Assembly: GCA_036245805.1 (NCBI GenBank)
Contig: BTRK01000004.1
Coordinates: 7,936,001 to 8,000,000 of the forward strand
Length of the DNA stretch: 64,000 bases
Direction of reading: 5' to 3'
Source of the DNA: Pristionchus mayeri
Lineage: Eukaryota; Nematoda; Chromadorea; Rhabditida; Neodiplogasteridae
Of the stretch, positions 1 to 64,000 are shown piece by piece (position 1 is the first letter of the stretch; every line of letters starts with the position of its first letter). Under the pieces are notes generated by a model that had not been told where the DNA came from, searched no databases, and saw only the letters and a list, made by a program, of their open reading frames with translations. Position numbers and translations under genes: made by a program.

Positions 1-223
1 CGGCCTTTTGGCTAAGATAACCTCTTTTCAAATCTTTTCGGCCTTTTGGCTAAGATAACCGCTTCTCAAATTTTCTCGGCCTTTTGGCTAAGATAACCGC
101 TTCTCAACCCTTCTCGGCCTTTTGGCTGAGATAACCGCTTCTCAAATTTTCTCGGCCTTTTGGCTAAGATAACCGCTACTCAATCCTTCTCGGCCTTTTG
201 GCTGAGATAACCGCTTCTCAAAT

Positions 224-246
224 CTTCTCGGCCTTTTGGCTAAGAT
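224..246 (+). other. U2 snRNA 5'-end-like core of the monomer (example copy)
   Basis: This 23-bp segment, CTTCTCGGCC followed by TTTTGGCTAAGAT, matches nt 5-27 of the animal U2 snRNA base for base as I recall the U2 sequence. It spans stem-loop I and the start of the strand that pairs with U6 in helix I. The same segment is present, exactly or with one or two changes, in nearly every monomer of the window. Identity ends after GAT: U2 continues CAAGTG, the satellite AACCGC. The flanking 15 bp include CGCTTCTC, equal to U2 nt 3-10, so the U2 5' end is represented twice per monomer. The branch-point pairing sequence (GTAGTA), Sm site and stem-loops II-IV are missing, so this is a U2-derived or U2-convergent repeat core, not a U2 gene. 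The match is from memory and not from a database search. Confidence 0.85.
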
Positions 247-822
247 AACCGCTTCTCAACCCTTCTCAGCCTTTTGGCTAAGATAACCGCTTCTTAACCC
301 TTCTCAGCCTTTTGGCTAAGATAACCGCTTCTCAAATCTTATCTGCCTTTTGGCTAAGATAACCTCTTTTCAAATCTTCTCGGCCTTTTGGCTAAGATAA
401 CCGCTTCTGAATCCTTCTCGACCTTTTGGCTAAGATAACCGCTTCTCAACCCTTCTCAGCCTTTTGGCTAAGATAACGGCTTCTCAACCCTTCTCGGCCT
501 TTTGGCTAAGATATCCTCTTTTCAAATCTTCTCGGCCTTTTGGCTAAGATAACCGCTTCTCAACCCTTCTCGGCCTTTTGGCTGAGATAACCGCTTCTCA
601 AATCTTCTCGGCCTTTTGGCTAAGATAACCGCTTCTCAAATCTTCTCGGCCTTTTGGCTAAGATAACCGCTTCTGAATCCTTCTCGACCTTTTGGCTGAG
701 ATAACCGCTTCTCAAATCTTCTCGGCCTTTTGGCTAAGATAACCGCTTCTCAATCCTTCTCGGCCTTTTGGCTAAGATAACCGCTTCTCAAATCTTCTCG
801 GCCTTTTGGCTAAGATAACCGC

Positions 823-3800
823 ATCTCAAATCTTCTCGTCCTTTTGGCTAAGATAACCGCTACTCAATCCTTCTCGGCCTTTTGGCTGAGATAACCGCTT
901 CTCAAATCTTCTCGGCCTTTTGGCTAAGATGACCGCTTCTCAACCCTTCTCAGCCTTTTGGCTAAGATAACCGCTTCTCAACCCTTCTCGGCCTTTTGGC
1001 TAAGATAACCGCTTCTCAAATCTTATCTGCCTTTTGGCTAAGATAACCGCTTCTCAAATCTTCTCGGCCTTTTGGCTGAGATAACCGCTTCTCAAATATT
1101 CCCGGCCTTATGGCTGAGATCACAGTTTCTCAACCCTTCTCGGCCTTTTGGCTAAGATAACCGCTTCTCAACCCTTCTCAGCCTTTTGGCTAAGATAACC
1201 GCTTCTCAACCCTTCTCGGCCTTTTGGCTAAGATAACCGCTTCTCAACCCTTCTCAGCCTTTTGGCTAACATAACCGCTTCTCAACCCTTCTCAGCCTTT
1301 TGGCTAAGATAACCGCTTCTCAAATCTTCTCGGCCTTTTGGCTAAGATAACCGCTTCTCAACCCTTCTCGGCCTTTTGGCTAAGATAACCGCTTCTCAAA
1401 TCTTCTCGGCCTTTTGGCTAAGATAACCGCATCTCAAATCTTCTCGGCCTTTTGGCTAAGATAACCGCTACTCAATCCTTCTCGGCCTTTTGGCTGAGAT
1501 AACCGCTTCTCAAATCTTCTCGGCCTTTTGGCTAAGATGACCGCTTCTCAACCCTTCTCAGCCTTTTGGCTAAGATAACCGCTTCTCAACCCTTCTCGGC
1601 CTTTTGGCTAAGATAACCGCTTCTCAAATCTTATCTGCCTTTTGGCTAAGATAACCGCTTCTCAAATCTTCTCGGCCTTTTGGCTGAGATAACCGCTTCT
1701 CAAATATTCCCGGCCTTATGGCTGAGATCACAGTTTCTCAACCCTTCTCGGCCTTTTGGCTAAGATAACCGCTTCTCAACCCTTCTCAGCCTTTTGGCTG
1801 AGATAACCGCTTCTCAAATCTTCTCGGCCTTTTGGCTAAGATAACCGCTTCTCAACCCTTCTCAGCCTTTTGGCTAACATAACCGCTTCTCAACCCTTCT
1901 CAGCCTTTTGGCTAAGATAACCGCTTCTCAAATCTTCTCGGCCTTTTGGCTAAGATAACCGCTTCTCAACCCTTCTCGGCCTTTTGGCTAAGATAACCGC
2001 TTCTCAAATCTTCTCGGCCTTTTGGCTAAGATAACCGCTTCTCAACACTTCTCGGCCTTTTGGCCGAGATAACCGCTTCTCAAATCTTCTCGGCCTTTTG
2101 GCTAAGATAACCGCTTCTCAACCCTTCTAAGCCTTTTGGCTAACATAACCGCTTCTCAACCCTTCTCGGCCTTTTGGCTAAGATAACCGCTTCTCAACCC
2201 TTCTCAGCCTTTTGGCTAAGATAACCGCTTCTCAACCCTTCTCAGCCTTTTGGCTAAGATAACCGCTTCTCAAATCTTCTCGGCCTTTTAGCTAAGATAA
2301 CCGCTTCTCAACCCTTCTCGGCCTTTTGGCTAAGATAACCGCTTCTCAAATCTTCTCGGCCTTTTGGCTAAGATAACCGCATCTCAAATCTTCTCGGCCT
2401 TTTGGCTAAGATAACCGCTACTCAATCCTTCTCGGCCTTTTGGCTGAGATAACCGCTTCTCAAATCTTCTCGGCCTTTTGGCTAAGATGACCGCTTCTCA
2501 ACCCTTCTCAGCCTTTTGGCTAAGATAACCGCTTCTCAACCCTTCTCGGCCTTTTGGCTAAGATAACCGCTTCTCAAATCTTATCTGCCTTTTGGCTAAG
2601 ATAACCGCTTCTCAAATCTTCTCGGCCTTTTGGCTAAGATAACCGCTTCTCAACACTTCTCGGCCTTTTGGCCGAGATAACCGCTTCTCAAATCTTCTCG
2701 GCCTTTTGGCTAAGATAACCGCTTCTCAACCCTTCTAAGCCTTTTGGCTAACATAACCGCTTCTCAACCCTTCTCGGCCTTTTGGCTAAGATAACCGCTT
2801 CTCAAATCTTCTCGGCCTTTTGGCTAAGATAACCGCTTCTCAACCCTTCTCGGCCTTTTGGCTAAGATAACCGCTTCTCAAATCTTCTCGGCCTTTTGGC
2901 TAAGATAACCGCTTCTCAACACTTCTCGGCCTTTTGGCCGAGATAACCGCTTCTCAAATCTTCTCGGCCTTTTGGCTAAGATAACCGCTTCTCAACCCTT
3001 CTAAGCCTTTTGGCTAACATAACCGCTTCTCAACCCTTCTCGGCCTTTTGGCTAAGATAACCGCTTCTCAACCCTTCTCAGCCTTTTGGCTAAGATAACC
3101 GCTTCTCAACCCTTCTCAGCCTTTTGGCTAAGATAACCGCTTCTCAAATCTTCTCGGCCTTTTGGCTAAGATAACCGCTTCTCAACCCTTCTCGGCCTTT
3201 TGGCTAAGATAACCGCTTCTCAAATCTTCTCGGCCTTTTGGCTAAGATAACCGCATCTCAAATCTTCTCGGCCTTTTGGCTAAGATAACCGCTACTCAAT
3301 CCTTCTCGGCCTTTTGGCTGAGATAACCGCTTCTCAAATCTTCTCGGCCTTTTGGCTAAGATGACCGCTTCTCAACCCTTCTCAGCCTTTTGGCTAAGAT
3401 AACCGCTTCTCAACCCTTCTCGGCCTTTTGGCTAAGATAACCGCTTCTCAAATCTTATCTGCCTTTTGGCTAAGATAACCGCTTCTCAAATCTTCTCGGC
3501 CTTTTGGCTGAGATAACCGCTTCTCAAATATTCCCGGCCTTATGGCTGAGATCACAGTTTCTCAACCCTTCTCGGCCTTTTGGCTAAGATAACCGCTTCT
3601 CAACCCTTCTCAGCCTTTTGGCTGAGATAACCGCTTCTCAAATCTTCTCGGCCTTTTGGCTAAGATAACCGCTTCTCAACCCTTCTCAGCCTTTTGGCTA
3701 ACATAACCGCTTCTCAACCCTTCTCAGCCTTTTGGCTAAGATAACCGCTTCTCAAATCTTCTCGGCCTTTTGGCTAAGATAACCGCTTCTCAACCCTTCT

Positions 3801-6800
3801 CGGCCTTTTGGCTAAGATAACCGCTTCTCAAATCTTCTCGGCCTTTTGGCTAAGATAACCGCTTCTCAACACTTCTCGGCCTTTTGGCCGAGATAACCGC
3901 TTCTCAAATCTTCTCGGCCTTTTGGCTAAGATAACCGCTTCTCAACCCTTCTAAGCCTTTTGGCTAACATAACCGCTTCTCAACCCTTCTCAGCCTTTTG
4001 GCTAAGATAACCGCTTCTCAACACTTCTCGGCCTTTTGGCTAAGATAACCGCTTCTCAACACTTCTCGGCCTTTTGGCTGAGATAACCGCTTCTCAAATC
4101 TTCTCGGCCTTTTGGCTGAGATAACCGCTTCTCAAATCTTCTCGGCCTTTTGGCTAAGATAACCTCTTCTCAACCCTTCTCGGCCTTTTGGCTAAGATAA
4201 CCGCTTCTCAAATCTTCTCGGCCTTTTGGCTAAGATAACCGCTTCTCAACACTTCTCGGCCTTTTGGCTGAGATAACCGCTTCTCAAATCTTCTCGGCCT
4301 TTTGGCTAAGATAACCGCTTCTCAACACTTCTCGGCCTTTTGGCTGAGATAACCGCTTCTCAAATCTTCTCGGCCTTTTGGCTAAGAAAACCGCTTCTCA
4401 ACCCTTCTCGGCCTTTTGGCTGAGATAACCGCTTCTCAAATCTTCTCGGCCTTTTGGCTAAGATAACCGCTTCTCAACCCTTCTCGGCCTTTTGGCTGAG
4501 ATAACCGCTTCGCAAATCTTCTCGGCCTTTTGGCTAAGATAACCGCTTCTCAAATCTTCTCGGCCTTTTGGCTAAGATAACCGCTTCTGAATCCTTCTCG
4601 ACCTTTTGGCTGAGATAACCGCTTCTCAAATCTTCTCGGCCTTTTGGCTAAGATAACTGCTTCTCAAATCTTCTCGGCCTTTTGGCTAAGATAACCGCTT
4701 CTCAAATCTTCTCGTCCTTTTGGCTGAGATAACCGCTTCTCAAATCTTCTCGGCCTTTTGGCTGAGATAACCGCTTCTCAAATCTTCTCGGCCTTTTGGC
4801 TAAGATAACCTCTTCTCAACCCTTCTCGGCCTTTTGGCTAAGATAACCGCTTCTCAACACTTCTCGGCCTTTTGGCTGAGATAACCGCTTCTCAAATCTT
4901 CTCGGCCTTTTGGCTAAGATAACCGCTTCTCAACACTTCTCGGCCTTTTGGCTGAGATAACCGCTTCTCAAATCTTCTCGGCCTTTTGGCTAAGATAACC
5001 GCTTCTCAACACTTCTCGGCCTTTTGGCTGAGATAACCGCTTCTCAAATCTTCTCGGCCTTTTGGCTAAGATAACCGCTTCTCAACCCTTCTCGGCCTTT
5101 TGGCTGAGATAACCGCTTCTCAAATCTTCTCGGCCTTTTGGCTAAGATAACCGCTTCTCAAATCTTCTCGGCCTTTTGGCTAAGATAACCGCTTCTGAAT
5201 CCTTCTCGACCTTTTGGCTGAGATAACCGCTTCTCAAATCCTCTCGGCCTTTTGGCTAAGATAACCGCTTCTCAACCCTTCTCGGCCTTTTGGCTAAGAT
5301 TACCGCTTCTCAAATCTTCTCGGCCTTTTGGCTAAGATAACCGCATCTCAAATCTTCTCGGCCTTTTGGCTAAGATAACCGCTACTCAATCCTTCTCGGC
5401 CTTTTGGCTGAGATAACCGCTTCTCAAATCTTCTCGGCCTTTTGGCTAAGATGACCGCTTCTCAACCCTTCTCAGCCTTTTGGCTAAGATAACCGCTTCT
5501 CAACCCTTCTCGGCCTTTTGGCTAAGATAACCGCTTCTCAAATCTTATCTGCCTTTTGGCTAAGATAACCGCTTCTCAAATCTTCTCGGCCTTTTGGCTG
5601 AGATAACCGTTCTCAAATCTTCTCAGCCTTTTGGCTGAGATAACCGTTCTCAAATCTTCTCAGCCTTTTGGCTAAGATAACCTCTTTTCAAATCTTCTCG
5701 GCCTTTTGGCTAAGATAACCGCTTCTCAAATCTTCTCGGCCTTTTGGCTAAGATAACCGCTTCTCAAATCTTCTCGGCCTTTTGGCTAAGATAACCGCTT
5801 CTCAACCCTTCTCGGCCTTTTGGCTAAGATAACCGCTTCTCAAATCTTCTCGGCCTTTTGGCTAAGATAACCGCTTCTCAACCCTTCTCGGCCTTTTGGC
5901 TAAGATAACCGCTTCTCAAATCTTCTCGGCCTTTTGGCTAAGATAACCGCTTCTCAACACTTCTCGGCCTTTTGGCTGAGATAACCGCTTCTCAAATATT
6001 CCCGGCCTTATGGCTGAGATCACAGTTTCTCAACCCTTCTCGGCCTTTTGGCTAAGATAACCGCTTCTCAACCCTTCTCAGCCTTTTGGCTGAGATAACC
6101 GCTTCTCAAATCTTCTCGGCCTTTTGGCTAAGATAACCGCTTCTCAACCCTTCTCAGCCTTTTGGCTAACATAACCGCTTCTCAACCCTTCTCAGCCTTT
6201 TGGCTAAGATAACCGCTTCTCAAATCTTCTCGGCCTTTTGGCTAAGATAACCGCTTCTCAACCCTTCTCGGCCTTTTGGCTAAGATAACCGCTTCTCAAA
6301 TCTTCTCGGCCTTTTGGCTAAGATAACCGCTTCTCAACACTTCTCGGCCTTTTGGCCGAGATAACCGCTTCTCAAATCTTCTCGGCCTTTTGGCTAAGAT
6401 AACCGCTTCTCAACCCTTCTAAGCCTTTTGGCTAACATAACCGCTTCTCAACCCTTCTCAGCCTTTTGGCTAAGATAACCGCTTCTCAACACTTCTCGGC
6501 CTTTTGGCTAAGATAACCGCTTCTCAACACTTCTCGGCCTTTTGGCTGAGATAACCGCTTCTCAAATCTTCTCGGCCTTTTGGCTGAGATAACCGCTTCT
6601 CAAATCTTCTCGGCCTTTTGGCTAAGATAACCTCTTCTCAACCCTTCTCGGCCTTTTGGCTAAGATAACCGCTTCTCAAATCTTCTCGGCCTTTTGGCTA
6701 AGATAACCGCTTCTCAACACTTCTCGGCCTTTTGGCTGAGATAACCGCTTCTCAAATCTTCTCGGCCTTTTGGCTAAGATAACCGCTTCTCAACACTTCT

Positions 6801-9800
6801 CGGCCTTTTGGCTGAGATAACCGCTTCTCAAATCTTCTCGGCCTTTTGGCTAAGATAACCGCTTCTCAACCCTTCTCGGCCTTTTGGCTGAGATAACCGC
6901 TTCTCAAATCTTCTCGGCCTTTTGGCTAAGATAACCGCTTCTCAACCCTTCTCGGCCTTTTGGCTGAGATAACCGCTTCGCAAATCTTCTCGGCCTTTTG
7001 GCTAAGATAACCGCTTCTCAAATCTTCTCGGCCTTTTGGCTAAGATAACCGCTTCTGAATCCTTCTCGACCTTTTGGCTGAGATAACCGCTTCTCAAATC
7101 TTCTCGGCCTTTTGGCTAAGATAACTGCTTCTCAAATCTTCTCGGCCTTTTGGCTAAGATAACCGCTTCTCAAATCTTCTCGTCCTTTTGGCTGAGATAA
7201 CCGCTTCTCAAATCTTCTCGGCCTTTTGGCTGAGATAACCGCTTCTCAAATCTTCTCGGCCTTTTGGCTAAGATAACCTCTTCTCAACCCTTCTCGGCCT
7301 TTTGGCTAAGATAACCGCTTCTCAACACTTCTCGGCCTTTTGGCTGAGATAACCGCTTCTCAAATCTTCTCGGCCTTTTGGCTAAGATAACCGCTTCTCA
7401 ACACTTCTCGGCCTTTTGGCTGAGATAACCGCTTCTCAAATCTTCTCGGCCTTTTGGCTAAGATAACCGCTTCTCAAATCTTCTCGGCCTTTTGGCTAAG
7501 ATAACCGCTTCTGAATCCTTCTCGACCTTTTGGCTGAGATAACCGCTTCTCAAATCCTCTCGGCCTTTTGGCTAAGATAACCGCTTCTCAACCCTTCTCG
7601 GCCTTTTGGCTAAGATAACCGCTTCTCAAATCTTCTCGGCCTTTTGGCTAAGATAACCGCATCTCAAATCTTCTCGGCCTTTTGGCTAAGATAACCGCTA
7701 CTCAATCCTTCTCGGCCTTTTGGCTGAGATAACCGCTTCTCAAATCTTCTCGGCCTTTTGGCTAAGATGACCGCTTCTCAACCCTTCTCAGCCTTTTGGC
7801 TAAGATAACCGCTTCTCAACCCTTCTCGGCCTTTTGGCTAAGATAACCGCTTCTCAAATCTTATCTGCCTTTTGGCTAAGATAACCGCTTCTCAAATCTT
7901 CTCGGCCTTTTGGCTGAGATAACCGTTCTCAAATCTTCTCAGCCTTTTGGCTGAGATAACCGTTCTCAAATCTTCTCAGCCTTTTGGCTAAGATAACCTC
8001 TTTTCAAATCTTCTCGGCCTTTTGGCTAAGATAACCGCTTCTCAAATCTTCTCGGCCTTTTGGCTAAGATAACCGCTTCTCAAATCTTCTCGGCCTTTTG
8101 GCTAAGATAACCGCTTCTCAACCCTTCTCGGCCTTTTGGCTAAGATAACCGCTTCTCAAATCTTCTCGGCCTTTTGGCTAAGATAACCGCTTCTCAACCC
8201 TTCTCGGCCTTTTGGCTAAGATAACCGCTTCTCAAATCTTCTCGGCCTTTTGGCTAAGATAACCGCTTCTCAACACTTCTCGGCCTTTTGGCTGAGATAA
8301 CCGCTTCTCAAATCTTCTCGGCCTTTTGGCTAAGATAACCGCTTCTCAACCCTTCTCGGCCTTTTGGCTAAGATAACCGCTTCTCAAATCTTCTCGGCCT
8401 TTTGGCTAAGATAACCGCATCTCAAATCTTCTCGGCCTTTTGGCTAAGATAACCGCTACTCAATCCTTCTCGGCCTTTTGGCTGAGATAACCGCTTCTCA
8501 AATCTTCTCGGCCTTTTGGCTAAGATGACCGCTTCTCAACCCTTCTCAGCCTTTTGGCTAAGATAACCGCTTCTCAACCCTTCTCGGCCTTTTGGCTAAG
8601 ATAACCGCTTCTCAAATCTTATCTGCCTTTTGGCTAAGATAACCGCTTCTCAAATCTTCTCGGCCTTTTGGCTGAGATAACCGTTCTCAAATCTTCTCAG
8701 CCTTTTGGCTGAGATAACCGTTCTCAAATCTTCTCAGCCTTTTGGCTAAGATAACCTCTTTTCAAATCTTCTCGGCCTTTTGGCTAAGATAACCGCTTCT
8801 CAAATCTTCTCGGCCTTTTGGCTAAGATAACCGCTTCTCAAATCTTCTCGGCCTTTTGGCTAAGATAACCGCTTCTCAACCCTTCTCGGCCTTTTGGCTA
8901 AGATAACCGCTTCTCAACACTTCTCGGCCTTTTGGCTGAGATAACCGCTTCTCAAATCTTCTCGGCCTTTTGGCTAAGATAACCGCTTCTCAACCCTTCT
9001 CAGCCTTTTGGCTAACATAACCGCTTCTCAACCCTTCTCAGCCTTTTGGCTAAGATAACCGCTTCTCAACACTTCTCGGCCTTTTGGCTAAGATAACCGC
9101 TTCTCAACACTTCTCGGCCTTTTGGCTGAGATAACCGCTTCTCAAATCTTCTCGGCCTTTTGGCTGAGATAACCGCTTCTCAAATCTTCTCGGCCTTTTG
9201 GCTAAGATAACCTCTTCTCAACCCTTCTCGGCCTTTTGGCTAAGATAACCGCTTCTCAAATCTTCTCGGCCTTTTGGCTAAGATAACCGCTTCTCAACAC
9301 TTCTCGGCCTTTTGGCTGAGATAACCGCTTCTCAAATCTTCTCGGCCTTTTGGCTAAGATAACCGCTTCTCAACACTTCTCGGCCTTTTGGCTAAGATAA
9401 CCGCTTCTCAACACTTCTCGGCCTTTTGGCTGAGATAACCGCTTCTCAAATCTTCTCGGCCTTTTGGCTAAGATAACCGCTTCTCAAATCTTCTCGGCCT
9501 TTTGGCTAAGATAACCGCTTCTCAACCCTTCTCGGCCTTTTGGCTAAGATAACCGCTTCTCAAATCTTCTCGGCCTTTTGGCTAAGATAACCGCTTCTCA
9601 ACCCTTCTCGGCCTTTTGGCTAAGATAACCGCTTCTCAAATCTTCTCGGCCTTTTGGCTAAGATAACCGCTTCTCAACACTTCTCGGCCTTTTGGCTGAG
9701 ATATCCGCTTCTCAAATCTTCTCGGCCTTTTGGCTAAGATAACCGCTTCTCAACACTTCTCGGCCTTTTGGCTGAGATAACCTCTTTTCAAATCTTCTCG

Positions 9801-15091: not shown

Positions 15092-15199
15092 CTCTTTTCA
15101 AATCTTCTCGGCCTTTTGGCTAAGATAACCGCTTCTCAAATCTTCTCGGCCTTTTGGCTAAGATAACCGCTTCTCAAATCTTCTCGGCCTTTTGGCTAA

Positions 15200-22600: not shown

Positions 22601-22639
22601 TTTGGCTGAGATAACCTCTCCTCAACCCTTCTCGGCCTT

Positions 22640-47479: not shown

Positions 47480-47580
47480 TCTTCTCGGCCTTTTGGCTAA
47501 GATAACCGCTTCTGAATCCTTCTCGACCTTTTGGCTGAGATAACCGCTTCTGAATCCTTCTCGACCTTTTGGCTGAGATA
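47480..47580 (+). repeat. Tandem doubling of the TTCTGAATCC-CGACC monomer
   Basis: The TTCTGAATCCTTCTCGACC monomer, normally solitary in each 798-bp unit, appears twice in succession here (about 47,512 and 47,550), both followed by TGAG. Just upstream, AACCC-CGGCC monomers are also repeated (47,401-47,460). The 798-bp periodicity breaks at this point: no AACGG copy follows at 47,923. Confidence 0.8.
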
Positions 47581-51460: not shown

Positions 51461-52020
51461 TCAAATCTTCTCGGCCTTTTGGCTAAGATAACCGCTTCTC
51501 AACCCTTCTCGACCTTTTGGCTAAGATAACCGCTTCTCAAATCTTCTCGGCCTTTTGGCTAAGATAACCGCTTCTCAACACTTCTCGGCCTTTTGGCTGA
51601 GATAACCGCTTCTCAAATCTTCTCGGCCTTTTGGCTAAGATAACCGCTTCTCAACCCTTCTCAGCCTTTTGGCTAACATAACCGCTTCTCAACCCTTCTC
51701 GACCTTTTGGCTAAGATAACCGCTTCTCAAATCTTCTCTGCCTTTTGGCTAACATAACCGCTTCTCAACCCTTCTCGACCTTTTGGCTAAGATAACCGCT
51801 TCTCAAATCTTCTCGGCCTTTTGGCTAAGATAACCGCTTCTCAACCCTTCTCAGCCTTTTGGCTAAGATAACTGCTTCTCAACACTTCTCGGCCTTTTGG
51901 CTGAGATAACCGCTTCTCACATCTTCTCGGCCTTTTGGCTGAGATAACCGCTTCTCAAATCTTCTCGGCCTTTTGGCTAAGATAACCTCTTTTCAAATCT
52001 TGGCCTTTTGGCTAAGATAA

Positions 52021-52734
52021 CCTCTTTTCAAATAACCGCTTCTCAACACTTCTCGGCCTTTTGGCTAAGATAATCGCTTCTCAACACTTCTCGGCCTTTT
52101 GGCTAAGATAACCGCTTCTCAACCCTTCTCAGCCTTTTGGCTAAGATAACCGCTTCTCAACCCTTCTCAGCCTTTTGCCTAAGATAACCGCTTCCCAAAT
52201 CTTCTCGGCCTTTTGGCTAAGATAACCGCTTCTCAAATCTTATCTGCCTTTTGGCTAAGATAACCGCTTCTCAAATCTTCTCGGCCTTTTGGCTGAGATA
52301 ACCTCTCCTCAACCCTTCTCGGCCTTTTGGCTGAGATAACCGCTTCTCAAATCTTCTCGGCCTTTTGGCTAAGATAACCTCTTTTCAAATAACCGCTTCT
52401 CAACACTTCTCGGCCTTTTGGCTAAGATAATCGCTTCTCAACACTTCTCGGCCTTTTGGCTAAGATAACCGCTTCTCAACCCTTCTCAGCCTTTTGGCTA
52501 AGATAACCGCTTCTCAACCCTTCTCAGCCTTTTGCCTAAGATAACCGCTTCCCAAATCTTCTCGGCCTTTTGGCTAAGATAACCGCTTCTCAAATCTTAT
52601 CTGCCTTTTGGCTAAGATAACCGCTTCTCAAATCTTCTCGGCCTTTTGGCTGAGATAACCTCTCCTCAACCCTTCTCGGCCTTTTGGCTGAGATAACCGC
52701 TTCTCAAATCTTCTCGGCCTTTTGGCTGAGATAA
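52021..52734 (+). repeat. 357-bp tandem duplication including a truncated monomer
   Basis: Two copies, 52,021-52,377 and 52,378-52,734, each begin CCTCTTTTCAAATAACCGC and include AAGATAATCGC, TTTTGCCTAAG, CTTCCCAAATC, ATCTGCC and CCTCTCCTC in the same order. The length is nine 38-bp monomers plus a 15-bp remnant, so the truncated unit was duplicated with its neighbours. The paralogous site at 31,195 has only one copy, so this duplication is younger than the 21-kb-spaced copying. Confidence 0.85.
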
Positions 52735-55320
52735 CCGCTTCTCAACCCTTCTCAGCCTTTTGGCTAAGATAACCGCTTCTCAACCCTTCTCGGCCTTTTG
52801 GCTAAGATAACCTCTTTTCAAATCTTCTCGGCCTTTTGGCTAAGATAACCGCTTCTCAAATTTTCTCGGCCTTTTGGCTAAGATAACCGCTTCTCAACCC
52901 TTCTCGGCCTTTTGGCTGAGATAACCGCTTCTCAAATCTTCTCGGCCTTTTGGCTAAGATAACCGCTACTCAATCCTTCTCGGCCTTTTGGCTGAGATAA
53001 CCGCTTCTCAAATCTTCTCGGCCTTTTGGCTAAGATAACCGCTTCTCAACCCTTCTCAGCCTTTTGGCTAAGATAACCGCTTCTTAACCCTTCTCAGCCT
53101 TTTGGCTAAGATAACCGCTTCTCAAATCTTATCTGCCTTTTGGCTAAGATAACCTCTTTTCAAATCTTCTCGGCCTTTTGGCTAAGATAACCGCTTCTCA
53201 AATCTTCTCGGCCTTTTGGCTAAGATAACCGCTTCTGAATCCTTCTCGACCTTTTGGCTAAGATAACCGCTACTCAATCCTTCTCGGCCTTTTGGCTGAG
53301 ATAACCGCTTCTCAAATCTTCTCGGCCTTTTGGCTAAGATAACCGCTTCTCAACCCTTCTCAGCCTTTTGGCTAAGATAACCGCTTCCCAACCCTTCTCG
53401 GCCTTTTGGCTAAGATAACCGCTTCTCAAATCTTCTCGGCCTTTTGGCTGAGATAACCGTTCTCAAATCTTCTCAGCCTTTTGGCTAAGATAACCTCTTT
53501 TCAAATCTTATCGGCCTTTTGGCTAAGATAACCGCTTCTCAAATCTTCTCGGCCTTTTGGCTAAGATAACCGCTTCTCAACACTTCTCGGCCTTTTGGCT
53601 GAGATAACCGCTTCTCAAATCTTCTCGGCCTTTTGGCTAAGATAACCGCTACTCAATCCTTCTCGGCCTTTTGGCTGAGATAACCGCTTCTCAAATCTTC
53701 TCGGCCTTTTGGCTAAGATAACCGCTACTCAATCCTTCTCGGCCTTTTGGCTAAGATAACCGCTTCTCAACCCTTCTCAGCCTTTTGGCTAAGATAACCG
53801 CTTCTCAACCCTTCTCGGCCTTTTGGCTAAGAAAACCGCTTCTCAAATCTTATCTGCCTTTTGGCTAAGATAACCGCTTCTCAAATCTTCTCGGCCTTTT
53901 GGCTGAGATAACCGTTCTCAAATCTTCTCAGCCTTTTGGCTAAGATAACCTCTTTTCAAATCTTCTCGGCCTTTTGGCTAAGATAACCGCTTCTCAAATC
54001 TTCTCGACCTTTTGGCTAAGATAACCGCTTCTCAACACTTCTCGACCTTTTGGCTAAGATAACCGCTTCTCAACCCTTCTCAGCCTTTTGGCTAACATAA
54101 CCGCTTCTCAACCCTTCTCAGCCTTTTGGCTAAGATAACCGCTTCTCAACACTTCTCGGCCTTTTGGCTAAGATAACCGCTTCTCAACACTTCTCGGCCT
54201 TTTGGCTGAGATAACCGCTTCTCAACCCTTCTCAGCCTTTTGGCTAACATAACCGCTTCTCAACCCTTCTCAGCCTTTTGGCTGAGATAACCGCTTCTCA
54301 ACACTTCTCGGCCTTTTGGCTGAGATAACCGCTTCTCAACCCTTCTCAGCCTTTTGGCTAACATAACCGCTTCTCAACCCTTCTCAGCCTTTTGGCTGAG
54401 ATAACCGCTTCTCAACACTTCTCGACCTTTTGGCTAAGATAACCGCTTCTCAACCCTTCTCAGCCTTTTGGCTAACATAACCGCTTCTCAACCCTTCTCA
54501 GCCTTTTGGCTGAGATAACCGCTTCTCAACACTTCTCGGCCTTTTGGCTGAGATAACCGCTTCTCAACCCTTCTCAGCCTTTTGGCTAACATAACCGCTT
54601 CTCAACCCTTCTCAGCCTTTTGGCTGAGATAACCGCTTCTCAACACTTCTCGACCTTTTGGCTAAGATATCCGCTTCTCAACCCTTCTCAGCCTTTTGGC
54701 TAACATAACCGCTTCTCAACCCTTCTCAGCCTTTTGGCTAAGATAACCGCTTCTCAACACTTCTCGGCCTTTTGGCTAAGATAACCGCTTCTCAACACTT
54801 CTCGGCCTTTTGGCTGAGATAACCGCTTCTCAACCCTTCTCAGCCTTTTGGCTAACATAACCGCTTCTCAACCCTTCTCAGCCTTTTGGCTGAGATAACC
54901 GCTTCTCAACACTTCTCGGCCTTTTGGCTGAGATAACCGCTTCTCAACCCTTCTCAGCCTTTTGGCTAACATAACCGCTTCTCAACCCTTCTCAGCCTTT
55001 TGGCTGAGATAACCGCTTCTCAACACTTCTCGACCTTTTGGCTAAGATAACCGCTTCTCAACCCTTCTCAGCCTTTTGGCTAACATAACCGCTTCTCAAC
55101 CCTTCTCAGCCTTTTGGCTAAGATAACCGCTTCTCAACACTTCTCGGCCTTTTGGCTAAGATAACCGCTTCTCAACACTTCTCGGCCTTTTGGCTGAGAT
55201 AACCGCTTCTCAAATCTTCTCGGCCTTTTGGCTGAGATAACCGCTTCTCAAATCTTCTCGGCCTTTTGGCTAAGATAACCTCTTCTCAACCCTTCTCAGC
55301 CTTTTGTCTAAGATAACCGC
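52021..55320 (+). repeat. Long-range duplication, copy 2 (partner at -20,826 / -21,183)
   Basis: This copy carries the same sequence of rare markers as 31.2-34.1 kb, plus an extra 357-bp tandem unit at its left end. It ends near 55.31 kb, where TTTTGTCTAAG replaces TTTTGCCTAAG; downstream of this the two copies take different paths (34.1 kb continues to ATCTGCC, 55.3 kb to AACCC-CAGCC). The high similarity over 3 kb at a distance of 21 kb implies a recent large-scale copy and not slow local drift. Confidence 0.85.
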
Positions 55321-56630
55321 TTCCCAAATCTTCTCGGCCTTTTGGCTAAGATAACCGCTTCTCAACCCTTCTCAGCCTTTTGGCTAAGATAACCGCTTCT
55401 CAACCCTTCTCGGCCTTTTGGCTAAGAAAACCGCTTCTCAAATCTTATCTGCCTTTTGGCTAAGATAACCGCTTCTCAAATCTTCTCGGCCTTTTGGCTG
55501 AGATAACCGTTCTCAAATCTTCTCAGCCTTTTGGCTAAGATAACCTCTTTTCAAATCTTCTCGGCCTTTTGGCTAAGATAACCGCTTCTCAAATCTTCTC
55601 GACCTTTTGGCTAAGATAACCGCTTCTCAACACTTCTCGACCTTTTGGCTAAGATAACCGCTTCTCAACCCTTCTCAGCCTTTTGGCTAACATAACCGCT
55701 TCTCAACCCTTCTCAGCCTTTTGGCTAAGATAACCGCTTCTCAACACTTCTCGGCCTTTTGGCTAAGATAACCGCTTCTCAACACTTCTCGGCCTTTTGG
55801 CTGAGATAACCGCTTCTCAACCCTTCTCAGCCTTTTGGCTAACATAACCGCTTCTCAACCCTTCTCAGCCTTTTGGCTGAGATAACCGCTTCTCAACACT
55901 TCTCGGCCTTTTGGCTGAGATAACCGCTTCTCAACCCTTCTCAGCCTTTTGGCTAACATAACCGCTTCTCAACCCTTCTCAGCCTTTTGGCTGAGATAAC
56001 CGCTTCTCAACACTTCTCGACCTTTTGGCTAAGATAACCGCTTCTCAACCCTTCTCAGCCTTTTGGCTAACATAACCGCTTCTCAACCCTTCTCAGCCTT
56101 TTGGCTGAGATAACCGCTTCTCAACACTTCTCGGCCTTTTGGCTGAGATAACCGCTTCTCAACCCTTCTCAGCCTTTTGGCTAACATAACCGCTTCTCAA
56201 CCCTTCTCAGCCTTTTGGCTGAGATAACCGCTTCTCAACACTTCTCGACCTTTTGGCTAAGATATCCGCTTCTCAACCCTTCTCAGCCTTTTGGCTAACA
56301 TAACCGCTTCTCAACCCTTCTCAGCCTTTTGGCTAAGATAACCGCTTCTCAACACTTCTCGGCCTTTTGGCTAAGATAACCGCTTCTCAACACTTCTCGG
56401 CCTTTTGGCTGAGATAACCGCTTCTCAACCCTTCTCAGCCTTTTGGCTAACATAACCGCTTCTCAACCCTTCTCAGCCTTTTGGCTGAGATAACCGCTTC
56501 TCAACACTTCTCGGCCTTTTGGCTGAGATAACCGCTTCTCAACCCTTCTCAGCCTTTTGGCTAACATAACCGCTTCTCAACCCTTCTCAGCCTTTTGGCT
56601 GAGATAACCGCTTCTCAACACTTCTCGACC
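54424..56630 (+). repeat. Two 608-bp composite repeats 1,595 bp apart
   Basis: CGACC marks at 54424/54652/55032 and 56019/56247/56627 match one for one at +1,595 bp. The private TTTTGTCTAAG variants at 55306 and 56901 share the same offset, so the two blocks arose by duplication of a 42-monomer unit containing one 37-bp monomer. GATATCC is at 54,666 and recurs at about 56,261, also consistent. Confidence 0.85.
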
Positions 56631-57239
56631 TTTTGGCTAAGATAACCGCTTCTCAACCCTTCTCAGCCTTTTGGCTAACATAACCGCTTCTCAACCCTTC
56701 TCAGCCTTTTGGCTAAGATAACCGCTTCTCAACACTTCTCGGCCTTTTGGCTAAGATAACCGCTTCTCAACACTTCTCGGCCTTTTGGCTGAGATAACCG
56801 CTTCTCAAATCTTCTCGGCCTTTTGGCTGAGATAACCGCTTCTCAAATCTTCTCGGCCTTTTGGCTAAGATAACCTCTTCTCAACCCTTCTCAGCCTTTT
56901 GTCTAAGATAACCGCTTCCCAAATCTTCTCGGCCTTTTGGCTAAGATAACCGCTTCTCAAATCTTATCTGCCTTTTGGCTAAGATAACCGCTTCTCAAAT
57001 CTTCTCGGCCTTTTGGCTGAGATAACCTCTCCTCAACCCTTCTCGGCCTTTTGGCTGAGATAACCGCTTCTCAAATCTTCTCGGCCTTTTGGCTGAGATA
57101 ACCGCTTCTCAACCCTTCTCAGCCTTTTGGCTAAGATAACCGCTTCTCAACCCTTCTCGGCCTTTTGGCTAAGATAACCTCTTTTCAAATCTTCTCGGCC
57201 TTTTGGCTAAGATAACCGCTTCTCAAATTTTCTCAGCCT

Positions 57240-60239
57240 TTTGGCTAACATAACCGCTTCTCAAATCTTCTCGACCTTTTGGCTGAGATAACCTCTCCTC
57301 AACCCTTCTCGGCCTTTTGGCTGAGATAACCGCTTCTCAAATCTTCTCGGCCTTTTGGCTGAGATAACCGCTTCTCAACCCTTCTCAGCCTTTTGGCTAA
57401 GATAACCGCTTCTCAACCCTTCTCGGCCTTTTGGCTGAGATAACCTCTCCTCAACCCTTCTCGGCCTTTTGGCTGAGATAACCGCTTCTCAAATCTTCTC
57501 GGCCTTTTGGCTGAGATAACCGCTTCTCAAATCTTCTCGGCCTTTTGGCTAAGATAACCTCTTCTCAACCCTTCTCAGCCTTTTGCCTAAGATAACCGCT
57601 TCCCAAATCTTCTCGGCCTTTTGGCTAAGATAACCGCTTCTCAAATCTTATCTGCCTTTTGGCTAAGATAACCGCTTCTCAAATCTTCTCGGCCTTTTGG
57701 CTGAGATAACCTCTCCTCAACCCTTCTCGGCCTTTTGGCTGAGATAACCGCTTCTCAAATCTTCTCGGCCTTTTGGCTGAGATAACCGCTTCTCAACCCT
57801 TCTCAGCCTTTTGGCTAAGATAACCGCTTCTCAACCCTTCTCGGCCTTTTGGCTAAGATAACCTCTTTTCAAATCTTCTCGGCCTTTTGGCTAAGATAAC
57901 CGCTTCTCAAATTTTCTCAGCCTTTTGGCTAACATAACCGCTTCTCAACCCTTCTCAGCCTTTTGGCTAAGATAACCGCTTCTCAACACTTCTCGGCCTT
58001 TTGGCTAAGATAACCGCTTCTCAAATCTTCTCGGCCTTTTGGCTAAGATAACCGCTACTCAATCCTTCTCGGCCTTTTGGCTGAGATAACCGCTTCTCAA
58101 ATCTTCTCGGCCTTTTGGCTAAGATAACCGCTTCTCAACCCTTCTCAGCCTTTTGGCTAAGATAACCGCTTCTTAACCCTTCTCAGCCTTTTGGCTAAGA
58201 TAACCGCTTCTCAAATCTTATCTGCCTTTTGGCTAAGATAACCTCTTTTCAAATCTTCTCGGCCTTTTGGCTAAGATAACCGCTTCTCAAATCTTCTCGG
58301 CCTTTTGGCTAAGATAACCGCTTCTGAATCCTTCGCGACCTTTTGGCTAAGATAACCGCTACTCAATCCTTCTCGGCCTTTTGGCTGAGATAACCGCTTC
58401 TCAAATCTTCTCGGCCTTTTGGCTAAGATAACCGCTTCTCAACCCTTCTCAGCCTTTTGGCTAAGATAACCGCTTCCCAACCCTTCTCGGCCTTTTGGCT
58501 AAGATAACCGCTTCTCAAATCTTCTCGGCCTTTTGGCTGAGATAACCGTTCTCAAATCTTCTCAGCCTTTTGGCTAAGATAACCTCTTTTCAAATCTTAT
58601 CGGCCTTTTGGCTAAGATAACCGCTTCTCAAATCTTCTCGGCCTTTTGGCTAAGATAACCGCTTCTCAACACTTCTCGGCCTTTTGGCTGAGATAACCGC
58701 TTCTCAAATCTTCTCGGCCTTTTGGCTAAGATAACCGCTACTCAATCCTTCTCGGCCTTTTGGCTGAGATAACCGCTTCTCAAATCTTCTCGGCCTTTTG
58801 GCTAAGATAACCGCTACTCAATCCTTCTCGGCCTTTTGGCTAAGATAACCGCTTCTCAACCCTTCTCAGCCTTTTGACTAAGATAACCGCTTCTCAACCC
58901 TTCTCGGCCTTTTGGCTAAGAAAACCGCTTCTCAAATCTTATCTGCCTTTTGGCTAAGATAACCGCTTCTCAAATCTTCTCGGCCTTTTGGCTGAGATAA
59001 CCGTTCTCAAATCTTCTCAGCCTTTTGGCTAAGATAACCTCTTTTCAAATCTTCTCGGCCTTTTGGCTAAGATAACCGCTTCTCAAATCTTCTCGACCTT
59101 TTGGCTAAGATAACCGCTTCTCAACACTTCTCGACCTTTTGGCTAAGATAACCGCTTCTCAACCCTTCTCAGCCTTTTGGCTAACATAACCGCTTCTCAA
59201 CCCTTCTCAGCCTTTTGGCTAAGATAACCGCTTCTCAACACTTCTCGGCCTTTTGGCTAAGATAACCGCTTCTCAACATTTCTCGGCCTTTTGGCTGAGA
59301 TAACCGCTTCTCAACCCTTCTCAGCCTTTTGGCTAACATAACCGCTTCTCAACCCTTCTCAGCCTTTTGGCTGAGATAACCGCTTCTCAACACTTCTCGG
59401 CCTTTTGGCTGAGATAACCGCTTCTCAACCCTTCTCAGCCTTTTGGCTAACATAACCGCTTCTCAACCCTTCTCAGCCTTTTGGCTGAGATAACCGCTTC
59501 TCAACACTTCTCGACCTTTTGGCTAAGATATCCGCTTCTCAACCCTTCTCAGCCTTTTGGCTAACATAACCGCTTCTCAACCCTTCTCAGCCTTTTGGCT
59601 AAGATAACCGCTTCTCAACACTTCTCGGCCTTTTGGCTAAGATAACCGCTTCTCAACACTTCTCGGCCTTTTGGCTGTGATAACCGCTTCTCAACCCTTC
59701 TCAGCCTTTTGGCTAACATAACCGCTTCTCAACCCTTCTCAGCCTTTTGGCTGAGATAACCGCTTCTCAACACTTCTCGGCCTTTTGGCTGAGATAACCG
59801 CTTCTCAACCCTTCTCAGCCTTTTGGCTAACATAACCGCTTCTCAACCCTTCTCAGCCTTTTGGCTGAGATAACCGCTTCTCAACACTTCTCGACCTTTT
59901 GGCTAAGATAACCGCTTCTCAACCCTTCTCAGCCTTTTGGCTAACATAACCGCTTCTCAACCCTTCTCAGCCTTTTGGCTAAGATAACCGCTTCTCAACA
60001 CTTCTCGGCCTTTTGGCTAAGATAACCGCTTCTCAACACTTCTCGGCCTTTTGGCTGAGATAACCGCTTCTCAAATCTTCTCGGCCTTTTGGCTGAGATA
60101 ACCGCTTCTCAAATCTTCTCGGCCTTTTGGCTAAGATAACCTCTTCTCAACCCTTCTCAGCCTTTTGCCTAAGATAACCGCTTCCCAAATCTTCTCGGCC
60201 TTTTGGCTAAGATAACCGCTTCTCAAATCTTATCTGCCT
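57240..60239 (+). repeat. 3,000-bp tandem duplication, copy 1
   Basis: From 57,241 to about 58,940 this copy aligns with 60,241-61,940 without gaps at an offset of exactly 3,000 bp, which is 79 monomers minus two for 37-bp units. By eye I count seven base differences over these 1.7 kb, about 0.4%, making this one of the youngest large duplications here. Differences include GACC/GGCC near 57,273, TTCGCGACC at about 58,333 in this copy only, and TTTTGACTAAG near 58,876 in this copy only. Unique to this copy's right half is GGCTGTGATAACC near 59,674. Confidence 0.88.
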
Positions 60240-60985
60240 TTTGGCTAACATAACCGCTTCTCAAATCTTCTCGGCCTTTTGGCTGAGATAACCTCTCCTC
60301 AACCCTTCTCGGCCTTTTGGCTGAGATAACCGCTTCTCAAATCTTCTCGGCCTTTTGGCTGAGATAACCGCTTCTCAACCCTTCTCAGCCTTTTGGCTAA
60401 GATAACCGCTTCTCAACCCTTCTCGGCCTTTTGGCTGAGATAACCTCTCCTCAACCCTTCTCGGCCTTTTGGCTGAGATAACCGCTTCTCAAATCTTCTC
60501 GGCCTTTTGGCTGAGATAACCGCTTCTCAAATCTTCTCGGCCTTTTGGCTAAGATAACCTCTTCTCAACCCTTCTCAGCCTTTTGCCTAAGATAACCGCT
60601 TCCCAAATCTTCTCGGCCTTTTGGCTAAGATAACCGCTTCTCAAATCTTATCTGCCTTTTGGCTAAGATAACCGCTTCTCAAATCTTCTCGGCCTTTTGG
60701 CTGAGATAACCTCTCCTCAACCCTTCTCGGCCTTTTGGCTGAGATAACCGCTTCTCAAATCTTCTCGGCCTTTTGGCTGAGATAACCGCTTCTCAACCCT
60801 TCTCAGCCTTTTGGCTAAGATAACCGCTTCTCAACCCTTCTCGGCCTTTTGGCTAAGATAACCTCTTTTCAAATCTTCTCGGCCTTTTGGCTAAGATAAC
60901 CGCTTCTCAAATTTTCTCAGCCTTTTGGCTAACATAACCGCTTCTCAACCCTTCTCAGCCTTTTGGCTAAGATAGCCGCTTCTCA
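60150..60985 (+). repeat. 11-monomer (418 bp) repeat
   Basis: TTTTGCCTAAG followed by CTTCCCAAATC occurs at 60,167 and 60,585 (GCC starts), exactly 418 bp or 11 monomers apart, with ATCTGCC, CCTCTCCTC and CAGCC monomers in the same order after each. The upstream counterparts at 56,901 (a GTC form) and 57,585 are 684 bp (18 monomers) apart, so this interval differs from the preceding block. Confidence 0.8.
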
Positions 60986-62580
60986 ACACTTCTCGGCCTT
61001 TTGGCTAAGATAGCCGCTTCTCAACACTTCTCGGCCTTTTGGCTAAGATAACCGCTACTCAATCCTTCTCGGCCTTTTGGCTGAGATAACCGCTTCTCAA
61101 ATCTTCTCGGCCTTTTGGCTAAGATAACCGCTTCTCAACCCTTCTCAGCCTTTTGGCTAAGATAACCGCTTCTTAACCCTTCTCAGCCTTTTGGCTAAGA
61201 TAACCGCTTCTCAAATCTTATCTGCCTTTTGGCTAAGATAACCTCTTTTCAAATCTTCTCGGCCTTTTGGCTAAGATAACCGCTTCTCAAATCTTCTCGG
61301 CCTTTTGGCTAAGATAACCGCTTCTGAATCCTTCTCGACCTTTTGGCTAAGATAACCGCTACTCAATCCTTCTCGGCCTTTTGGCTGAGATAACCGCTTC
61401 TCAAATCTTCTCGGCCTTTTGGCTAAGATAACCGCTTCTCAACCCTTCTCAGCCTTTTGGCTAAGATAACCGCTTCCCAACCCTTCTCGGCCTTTTGGCT
61501 AAGATAACCGCTTCTCAAATCTTCTCGGCCTTTTGGCTGAGATAACCGTTCTCAAATCTTCTCAGCCTTTTGGCTAAGATAACCTCTTTTCAAATCTTAT
61601 CGGCCTTTTGGCTAAGATAACCGCTTCTCAAATCTTCTCGGCCTTTTGGCTAAGATAACCGCTTCTCAACACTTCTCGGCCTTTTGGCTGAGATAACCGC
61701 TTCTCAAATCTTCTCGGCCTTTTGGCTAAGATAACCGCTACTCAATCCTTCTCGGCCTTTTGGCTGAGATAACCGCTTCTCAAATCTTCTCGGCCTTTTG
61801 GCTAAGATAACCGCTACTCAATCCTTCTCGGCCTTTTGGCTAAGATAACCGCTTCTCAACCCTTCTCAGCCTTTTGGCTAAGATAACCGCTTCTCAACCC
61901 TTCTCGGCCTTTTGGCTAAGAAAACCGCTTCTCAAATCTTCTCAGCCTTTTGGCTAAGATAACCTCTTTTCAAATCTTCTCGGCCTTTTGGCTAAGATAA
62001 CCGCTTCTCAAATCTTCTCAGCCTTTTGGCTAAGATAACCGCTTCTCAAATCTTCTCGGCCTTTTGGCTGAGATAACCGTTCTCAAATCTTCTCAGCCTT
62101 TTGGCTAAGATAACCTCTTTTCAAATCTTCTCGGCCTTTTGGCTAAGATAACCGCTTCTCAAATCTTCTCGACCTTTTGGCTAAGATAACCGCTTCTCAA
62201 CACTTCTCGACCTTTTGGCTAAGATAACCGCTTCTCAACCCTTCTCAGCCTTTTGGCTAACATAACCGCTTCTCAACCCTTCTCAGCCTTTTGGCTAAGA
62301 TAACCGCTTCTCAACACTTCTCGGCCTTTTGGCTAAGATAACCGCTTCTCAACACTTCTCGGCCTTTTGGCTGAGATAACCGCTTCTCAACCCTTCTCAG
62401 CCTTTTGGCTAACATAACCGCTTCTCAACCCTTCTCAGCCTTTTGGCTGAGATAACCGCTTCTCAACACTTCTCGGCCTTTTGGCTGAGATAACCGCTTC
62501 TCAACCCTTCTCAGCCTTTTGGCTAACATAACCGCTTCTCAACCCTTCTCAGCCTTTTGGCTGAGATAACCGCTTCTCAA
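60240..62580 (+). repeat. 3,000-bp tandem duplication, copy 2
   Basis: The left join is visible at about 60,235-60,250: an ATCTGCC monomer runs into TAACAT, whereas ATCTGCC monomers elsewhere carry TAAG or TGAG. After 61,940 the copy gains two monomers (the marker 37-bp unit is at 59,001 and 62,077, offset 3,076) and then resumes until about 62,580. The right end lies shortly before the inverted scrap at 62,742. Confidence 0.85.
60961..61046 (+). repeat. Adjacent monomers sharing the private GATAGCC change
   Basis: GATAGCCGCTTCTCAACAC occurs in two neighbouring monomers, GATAGCC at 60,971 and 61,009, 38 bp apart, and nowhere else that I saw. The duplicate block 3,000 bp upstream has GATAACC at both sites, and AAATC where the second GATAGCC monomer has AACAC. 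A single conversion of the second monomer by the first would explain both the shared G and the AACAC change without altering length. Confidence 0.8.
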
Positions 62581-62741
62581 CCCTTCTCAGCCTTTTGGCT
62601 AAGATAACCGCTTCTCAAATCTTCTCGGCCTTTTGGCTGAGATAACCGTTCTCAAATCTTCTCAGCCTTTTGGCTAAGATAACCTCTTTTCAAATCTTAT
62701 CGGCCTTTTGGCTAAGATAACCGCTTCTCAACCCTTATCTT

Positions 62742-62798
62742 AGAAGCGGTTATCTTAGCCAAAAGGCTGAGAAGGGTTGAGAAGCGGTTATGTTAGCC
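62742..62798 (-). repeat. Inverted 57-bp satellite segment forming a fold-back palindrome
   Basis: This is the only stretch in minus orientation: 1.5 monomers read on the reverse strand as TAACAT, AACCC-CAGCC and TAAGAT. Positions 62,742-62,789 pair with 62,800-62,847 as a 48-bp inverted repeat with one mismatch and a 10-base spacer (62,790-62,799). To the left, CAACCC joins TTATCTTAG at 62,735, which also reads as reverse monomer, so the left break is compound. To the right the join is GCCAA to ACCGC with AA shared. The form is that of a template-switch or fold-back event during replication or repair; a library or assembly artefact is possible. Confidence 0.92.
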
Positions 62799-64000
62799 AA
62801 ACCGCTTCTCAACCCTTCTCAGCCTTTTGGCTAACATAACCGCTTCTCATCCCTTCTCAGCCTTTTGGCTGAGATAACCGCTTCTCAACACTTCTCGGCC
62901 TTTTGGCTGAGATAACCGCTTCTCAACCCTTCTCAGCCTTTTGGCTAACATAACCGCTTCTCAACCCTTCTCAGCCTTTTGGCTGAGATAACCGCTTCTC
63001 AACACTTCTCGACCTTTTGGCTAAGATAACCGCTTCTCAACACTTCTCGGCCTTTTGGCTGAGATAACCGCTTCTCAACCCTTCTCAGCCTTTTGGCTAA
63101 CATAACCGCTTCTCAACCCTTCTCAGCCTTTTGGCTAACATAACCGCTTCTCAACCCTTCTCAGCCTTTTGGCTAAGATAACCGCTTCTCAACACTTCTC
63201 GGCCTTTTGGCTAAGATAACCGCTTCTCAACACTTCTCGGCCTTTTGGCTGAGATAACCGCTTCTCAACCCTTCTCAGCCTTTTGGCTAACATAACCGCT
63301 TCTCAACCCTTCTCAGCCTTTTGGCTGAGATAACCGCTTCTCAACACTTCTCGGCCTTTTGGCTGAGATAACCGCTTCTCAACCCTTCTCAGCCTTTTGG
63401 CTAACATAACCGCTTCTCAACCCTTCTCAGCCTTTTGGCTGAGATAACCGCTTCTCAACACTTCTCGACCTTTTGGCTAAGATAACCGCTTCTCAACCCT
63501 TCTCAGCCTTTTGGCTAACATAACCGCTTCTCAACCCTTCTCAGCCTTTTGGCTAAGATAACCGCTTCTCAACACTTCTCGGCCTTTTGGCTAAGATAAC
63601 CGCTTCTCAACACTTCTCGGCCTTTTGGCTGAGATAACCGCTTCTCAAATCTTCTCGGCCTTTTGGCTGAGATAACCGCTTCTCAAATCTTCTCGGCCTT
63701 TTGGCTAAGATAACCTCTTCTCAACCCTTCTCGGCCTTTTGGCTAAGATAACCGCTTCTCAAATCTTCTCGGCCTTTTGGCTAAGATTACCGCTTCTCAA
63801 CACTTCTCGGCCTTTTGGCTGAGATAACCGCTTCTCAAATCTTCTCGGCCTTTTGGCTAAGATAACCGCTTCTCAACACTTCTCGGCCTTTTGGCTGAGA
63901 TTACCGCTTCTCAAATCTTCTCGGCCTTTTGGCTAAGATAACCGCTTCTCAACCCTTCTCAGCCTTTTGGCTAAGATAACTGCTTCTCAACACTTCTCGG

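Follow-up and report, generated by a model that had tools for sequence, protein, structure and literature searches.

Probable birth of a single-locus satellite in Pristionchus mayeri from a U2 5′ end at the border of a tandem U1-U2-U5 cluster

The beginnings of satellite DNA are usually hidden: parent and product have drifted apart. A stretch of 64,000 nucleotides from the nematode Pristionchus mayeri (assembly GCA_036245805.1, contig BTRK01000004.1, here called C4, positions 7,936,001–8,000,000; “the window”) raises the question of how such a beginning may look, since it consists from end to end of copies of a 38-bp unit that contains the first nucleotides of U2 small nuclear RNA (snRNA). How did a piece of a spliceosomal RNA gene become an array of this kind? 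Here, we describe the array, its match to the U2 genes of its host, and its surroundings, using searches of the 290.8-Mb genome (73 contigs). We consider it likely that a U2 snRNA gene, through its 5′ end, gave rise to this single-locus satellite at the border of a tandem cluster of U1, U2, and U5 genes.

Window positions 1–64,000 form one array on the plus strand, i.e., in the sense of U2, for which Tandem Repeats Finder (TRF) gives a period of 38 bp, 1684.1 copies, and 91% matches, in agreement with the repeat unit named in a preliminary description of this DNA. From TRF and sampling, the window is a slice of a larger array. The plus arm of that array runs from C4:7,788,482 to 8,207,059 and is followed by an inverted arm from 8,207,060 to about 8,218,152, which by arithmetic makes ~430 kb, or ~11,300 units; between C4:8,010,001 and 8,195,600, all 19 sampled pieces of 600 bases were plus-strand array. 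Cutting C4:7,788,500–8,000,000 into monomers yielded 5,569 rows (the first and last of them partial), of which 5,451 are 38 bases long, with 232 distinct sequences among the rows and no insertion anywhere in these 211 kb. The longest stop-free run in the window, in six frames, is 57 codons, which rules out a coding array. The window is satellite DNA, i.e., a long head-to-tail array of near-identical, non-coding units.

Could the array be an artefact, the assembler having stretched a short minisatellite located at the U2 cluster? Such arrays are difficult to assemble, and the exact length is uncertain. However, the distinct monomer sequences stand in ordered blocks, and there is no N in the 200 kb on the left side or in 20 samples. 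The two arms are 96.25% alike over 10,676 columns in their best register (91–95% in the 14 other registers shown); because they are no more alike than this, the inverted arm arose as a duplication that has since diverged, rather than as a fold-back copy. We regard an artefact as highly improbable.

The 23-mer CTTCTCGGCCTTTTGGCTAAGAT is identical to nucleotides (nt) 5–27 of the host’s own U2 genes, after which the monomer departs from U2. U2 genes on contig C5 start with ATCGCTTCTCGGCCTTTTGGCTAAGATCAAAG, and those on C4 are identical there. The preliminary description had derived the core from animal U2, and the U2 of the host does not differ from it. The exact 23-mer is present in 692 of the 1682 whole monomers in the window and in 2442 of the 5567 across all cut monomers. 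A representative monomer, CTTCTCGGCCTTTTGGCTAAGAT + A + ACCGCTTCTC + AACC, lies at window positions 224–261 on the plus strand, with the exact 23-nt match at 224–246; this core contains U2 stem-loop I (U2 nt 7–26), as judged from the host match, Rfam, and the predicted fold. The unit thus comes from the host’s own U2 gene, as in a U2-derived satellite, whereas no sequence in the window shows the full-length fold at the RF00004 gathering score that marks a U2 snRNA gene. An Rfam scan of the window returned nothing that reached a gathering score, as expected because the U2 piece is just 23 nt long. With a relaxed threshold, the top row for window positions 1–600 was U2, at 27.5 bits (E 0.0014; gathering score 46).

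What is the origin of the other 15 bp, first described as a linker? The 8-bp CGCTTCTC (U2 nt 3–10), which had been recognized from the outset, is indeed present, and it extends to ACCGCTTCTC (window 248–257, plus strand). The latter agrees with U2 nt 1–10 at 9 of 10 positions and is probably a second, shorter U2 5′ end. When the monomer is written as AACC CTTCTCGGCCTTTTGGCTAAGAT / A / ACCGCTTCTC and compared with U2(1–27)+A+U2(1–10), where the A is a free choice of the model, 35 of 38 positions agree for this one common monomer type, and 34 of 38 for the AAAT form. Across all 5,567 monomers, the mean fit is 33.3 of 38, with a maximum of 36. Taken alone, the second U2 copy has a p-value of 0.013–0.022 with dinucleotide shuffles of the 15-mer, or ~0.0003 with plain shuffles. 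Judging from these comparisons, the whole monomer, including the supposed linker, is probably U2-derived and made of two nested U2 5′ ends. An origin of the linker in U1, U5, or spacer was rejected, since nothing in the C4 cluster unit beat shuffled queries; the best match of the AACC form of the linker on both the C4 and the C5 units is the U2 5′ end (11 of 15), a score that shuffled queries also reach. A better match was found neither for the linker in the two cluster units nor for the monomer in the left flank, to which the search for one was confined. A variant from the array edge, GATCACAG (53 copies), agrees with U2 nt 28–33 at five of six positions and is only suggestive of a longer U2 match.

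Is the satellite confined to this place? The exact word GGCCTTTTGGCTAAGATAACCGCTTCTCAA occurs genome-wide 2806 times on the plus strand and 31 times on the minus strand. All 31 minus occurrences are within C4:8,196,001–8,256,000, the region of the inverted arm. Plus occurrences number 1751 in 7.7885–8.0 Mb, 21 in 8.196–8.207 Mb, and 13 from there to 8.256 Mb, and the remaining 1021 compare with ~980 expected for the sampled 196 kb (extrapolated from 57 in 19 × 600 bases, with a counting error alone of ~13%). The exact-word counts fit one locus, with small patches elsewhere possible. An exact 22-mer of the satellite had 0 stretches in viral_contigs and genome_contigs, which are viral and prokaryotic collections and therefore little informative.

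These counts bear on two other classes of repeat. First, a short interspersed nuclear element (SINE) with an snRNA head would be seen as dispersed copies with body and tail; here, there is one locus, and each monomer runs into the next with no body. Second, the array might be a centromeric or chromosome-structural satellite whose likeness to U2 is coincidental, and its size of ~430 kb and near-uniform orientation would suit such a role. A centromeric satellite, however, is expected on several or all chromosomes and bound by CENP-A, whereas the counts here fit a single locus on one contig. Rhabditid chromosomes are generally holocentric, which also weighs against a centromeric satellite, and 23 exact bases of host U2, together with adjacency to a U2 cluster, speak against a chance likeness. 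We give this explanation hardly any credence.

Where are the parent genes? U2 scores above the Rfam cut-off at at least 46 places, a lower bound for which 46 candidates were scored: C4 and C5 each have a cluster, with 27 and 11 of these places, respectively, and the others are on C6 (five), C1 (two), and C3 (one). The C4 cluster occupies 8,223,393–8,293,050 on the minus strand, and the C5 cluster occupies 37,015,202–37,034,972. In both, U1, U2, and U5 genes share a common tandem unit, of 2015 bp on C4 and 1958 bp on C5 (Rfam on loci L001, L008, L051, and L053). A twelfth U2 5′ end on C5, at 37,036,743, is without a matching U2 3′-end word, of which C5 has 11, and is possibly a truncated cluster edge like that on C4. 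The array lies directly beside the C4 cluster: at its right end, the inverted arm joins an inverted piece of the snRNA unit (710–1266, with the U1 gene), followed by a U2 cut after nt 117. The exact host core and this adjacency argue for the original suggestion that a truncated U2 copy was amplified into a satellite.

Satellite sequence also occurs inside the edge of the C4 cluster. Thirteen blocks of four plus-strand monomers lie within C4:8,219,637–8,250,785, between copies of the U2-upstream segment; they are spread over seven successive inter-U2 intervals (8,218,707 to 8,252,555), with one to four blocks in each. In L051 and L053, each of the six blocks present is adjacent to a U5 copy missing a few nucleotides at its 5′ end; Rfam gives these copies 74.3 bits, as compared with 84.5–89.3 for whole U5. 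The first monomer of the blocks carries private changes, captured in an “edge word” (0–1 mismatch), that recur nowhere but at the outermost left end of the array. All 87 genome-wide matches to the edge word at ≤2 mismatches are on C4 in the array region, and none lies farther than the seven block-bearing intervals. The private changes that the blocks and the left edge have in common point to a common ancestor, and because the array has an extra degenerate half-monomer on the left, array-to-block would be the simpler direction. As a control, the C5 locus L001 (3,191 bases, one unit) lacks satellite blocks, which shows that units of this type do not always carry them.

Remnants of the cluster are found on the other side of the array as well. 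A U2 3′-end word (≤1 mismatch) occurs at 40 places genome-wide. The two clusters account for 38 of them (on C4, 26 exact plus one mismatched; on C5, 11). One of the others is a mismatched copy on C1; the other, at C4:7,783,664, is 4.8 kb left of the array and forms part of an exact 29-base copy of the C4 U2 3′ end (32 bases with the C5 copy). About 0.5 kb closer to the array, C4:7,784,212–7,784,453 is a diverged copy of a cluster spacer (73.5% over 253 columns). For this spacer, a genome-wide search gave 41 candidates and 40 scored matches, which exclude the left copy and without exception fall within the C4 and C5 clusters. Double TTAGGC telomere units, considered as a possible sign of programmed DNA elimination at the array edges, are absent from the left flank, the window, and 8,196,001–8,256,000. 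No transfer RNAs were found in L009–L013, using a bacterial setting.

How did the array grow? A regular higher-order repeat was rejected, the best monomer lag up to 3,000 being 10, with 0.117 identical. Runs of 5, 12, 20, and 40 monomers that recur elsewhere account for 0.937, 0.772, 0.567, and 0.313 of the 5,567 monomers, respectively, as compared with 0.022 for runs of 5, and 0.000 for each of the longer ones, after the order was shuffled once. At its longest, a recurring run has 83 monomers, at a lag of 236 (~9 kb). Since long runs of monomers recur elsewhere, growth proceeded largely via block copying. Unequal exchange and break-induced replication are established machinery for such arrays, and one or the other is likely to have driven growth here.

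Birth of the satellite at the cluster edge is likely to have proceeded as follows. Through a rearrangement there, a U2 5′ end reaching from nt 1 to ~27 would have been orphaned beside a shorter one (nt 1–10), with the first stump made either by a chance break or by a U2-linked retroelement. The two adjacent U2 5′ ends would then have become the 38-bp founder, which was presumably duplicated in tandem and expanded by out-of-register exchange or break-induced re-copying in blocks of tens to hundreds of monomers. Such expansion would be the same sort of turnover as that keeping tandem gene clusters uniform. Later, a piece of the left edge of the array may have been captured beside a truncated U5 gene and multiplied there. 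The array itself is expected to be passive, with no function of its own.

Several points weigh against this account: (i) the nested reading of the monomer is post hoc, its second half has a p-value of 0.013–0.022 with dinucleotide shuffles, and comparison of the linker with the whole 2-kb cluster units gave no score beating shuffled queries; (ii) the left boundary of the array is not joined to cluster DNA, the remnants being 4–5 kb off and in rearranged order; (iii) identical monomers are adjacent at a frequency of 0.034 versus 0.064 by chance (7,788,500–8,000,000), a rarity that the simple story does not predict; (iv) 196 kb of the array (C4:8,000,001–8,196,000) are known only from the 19 600-base samples; and (v) the comparison is within a single species and dates neither the array itself nor the order in which blocks and array arose.

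What could have made the first stump? One candidate founder is a retroelement that starts with U2, its head having become the monomer; another is a U2 stump that arose when an element of this type inserted into the cluster. In either case, cutting or template switching by the element would have made the U2 5′ fragments that became the satellite. Two places at the edge of the C4 cluster carry identical inserts of ~3.1 kb. Read in the direction of U2, each has the U2 promoter, U2 nt 1–11, and then an open reading frame (ORF) of 446 amino acids, with a U2 nt 1–31 piece inside the frame of the ORF; the insert at L053:3900–7100 also has a perfect 147-bp inverted repeat (arms 4117–4263 and 4436–4582). 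The insert has a relative on C3, to which two stretches within the first 1,025 bases are 98–99% identical. This C3 element, at 39,753,568 on the minus strand (L056, C3:39,753,300–39,753,720), starts exactly at U2 nt 1 and retains nt 1–26 within a TAA-rich stretch; its 5′ part gave no other match in the genome search. A further element, at C4:46,919,600 (L057, C4:46,919,540–46,919,740), also begins at U2 nt 1, keeps nt 1–34 (33 of 34), and has related sequence after it. The two elements are 78% alike over 117 columns including the heads, and the part after the heads scores 46 versus a maximum of 22 in 500 shuffles. L056 and L057 belong to a U2-headed family, outside the U2 clusters, that was probably retrotransposed. 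Fragment ends in these elements and inserts fall at U2 nt 11, 26, 31, and 34, and those in the monomer at 10 and 27. Moreover, retrotransposons that target U2 genes are known, namely Utopia and Keno, for which the published account gives varied 5′ junctions and U2 nt 39 onward at the 3′ junction (PMC4640811).

The retroelement explanation has to contend with the monomer itself, in which no body sequence from behind the U2 heads was seen, and with the absence of insertions from all the DNA that was cut into monomers. The Utopia-type 3′ junction, starting at nt 39, is not seen in the 3.1-kb insert (no such stretch in the 3,451 bases compared), and a search of 211 kb of the array for three target words from the literature, namely TGTAGTATCTG and two shorter parts, found none of them. 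For lack of these words, the idea of the array as a retroelement decoy was also rejected. In the 446-amino-acid ORF, the one domain match is a weak, sub-threshold zinc finger, and at E ≤ 0.001 the ORF is without a homologue. Utopia elements are marked by reverse transcriptase and RLE domains; a reverse transcriptase was not seen here, the ORF being the frame compared with known proteins and domains, and the C3 copy being read in its upstream part. A retroelement founder is possible, although we lean clearly against it; its likelihood overlaps with that of birth from a U2 gene at the cluster edge, as the two are not exclusive. The preliminary description had named the head of an snRNA-derived element as one candidate founder: two U2-headed elements do exist elsewhere in the genome, and the doubt concerns their role as founder. 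Somewhat less likely still is the more general proposal that a retroelement transcribed from, or starting with, the U2 5′ end seeds satellites. In that case, insertion of the element into the U2 cluster, or copying from it, would leave orphan U2 5′ ends that recur near nt 10–11 and nt 26–34, and one stump would have been amplified into the 430-kb array of two nested U2 5′ ends beside the parent genes.

A different possibility is that the array is functional. If transcribed, tandem U2 stem-loop I hairpins might act as a sink for U6 or for factors that bind U2, or might influence splicing or the supply of snRNAs in some other way. The RNA of one monomer is predicted to take the form of U2 stem-loop I, with −8.2 kcal/mol and a z of −1.81, a string of three monomers folds better than shuffles on both strands (z −4.18 and −4.42), and all seven stem pairs are kept in 1375 of the 1682 window monomers. 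However, in the three-monomer string, the first core alone forms the stem-loop, and the other two cores pair together. Nor is the core less variable than linker sites 24–36, with values of 0.035 versus 0.027 in the window and 0.061 versus 0.061 among 114 distinct monomers; an initial contrast between core (0.035) and linker (0.095) was due to two polymorphic sites. Either of the variants A7 and G19 would make the stem stronger, and both together would make it perfect; this combination is found in 61 copies versus ~293 if independent. Lastly, the 114 distinct monomers include five double changes at paired sites, two leading to a G-T pair and three to no pair. Selection for the U2 hairpin is thus unsupported, given the variability of the core and the depletion of the A7/G19 double variant, and we consider a functional array very unlikely.

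The window has two local irregularities. A ~58-bp stretch of inverted satellite lies within the plus-strand array at window positions 62,744–62,801 (minus strand), the sole inverted stretch from a scan of the window. At 52,298–52,479 (plus strand), TRF and monomer cutting reveal an irregular stretch with 53-bp spacing, in which the monomer at 52,353 has 15 extra bases. Elsewhere in the assembly, several mitochondrial COX1 copies lie at C2:44,550,843–44,582,507, in the last 40 kb of a chromosome-size contig of 44,588,995 bases; mitochondrial reads may have been joined to the contig during assembly, or the nucleus may hold a large copy. Translated with the invertebrate mitochondrial code, this COX1 has 92% identity to a Litoditis protein, and in the best 120 of 7,997 hits the named ones at the top are from nematodes, which places the host among the rhabditids.

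Birth from a U2 gene at the cluster edge would mean that the near-invariant 5′ end of a spliceosomal RNA can turn into bulk tandem DNA, and the array would give an unusually clear view of how a satellite is born from an essential gene. About half a megabase holds the parent genes, the rearranged border of their cluster with its short blocks, and the array at full length; therefore, the order of events is testable in close relatives.

How does the locus compare with known systems? The units of the human RNU2 macrosatellite reportedly carry whole U2 genes, like the C4 and C5 clusters described here and unlike the 38-bp array. The likeness of RNU2 to the present locus lies in its being a tandem U2 locus (PMC4132748). 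MelSat01 of Meloidogyne is, like the array, a nematode satellite that represents a splicing-related small RNA gene, a variant of the spliced leader SL1. However, MelSat01 holds the spliced leader gene (PMC9673304), whereas the array has just the first ~27 nt of U2 and is unable to make U2 RNA. The As51 satellite of characiform fishes has a proposed birth in a tandem cluster of essential RNA genes, in the spacer of 45S ribosomal DNA. It differs in being derived from a spacer rather than from an RNA-coding 5′ end, and in having dispersed to other heterochromatic regions, as compared with one locus here (PMC13170303). In a search of a literature collection that lacks Repbase and the majority of subscription journals, neither titles nor the openings of abstracts dealt with this satellite or with a 38-bp U2-derived unit, and phrases for a U1-, U2-, or snRNA-derived satellite had no match. 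The preliminary description knew of no satellite of this size made from a U2 fragment, which holds for the size and not for the kind. U2_sat of Ciona is a satellite derived from U2 snRNA genes (Kojima and Jurka, 2015; PMC4640811). It is likened to the array by description only; its host is a tunicate, and it is an occasional insertion site of YURE retrotransposons, in contrast to the 211 kb cut into monomers here, in which no insertion appears. Because U2_sat is already in print, a U2-derived satellite is not new as a kind. What is new here is the nested monomer, the size, and the position of the array beside its parent genes.

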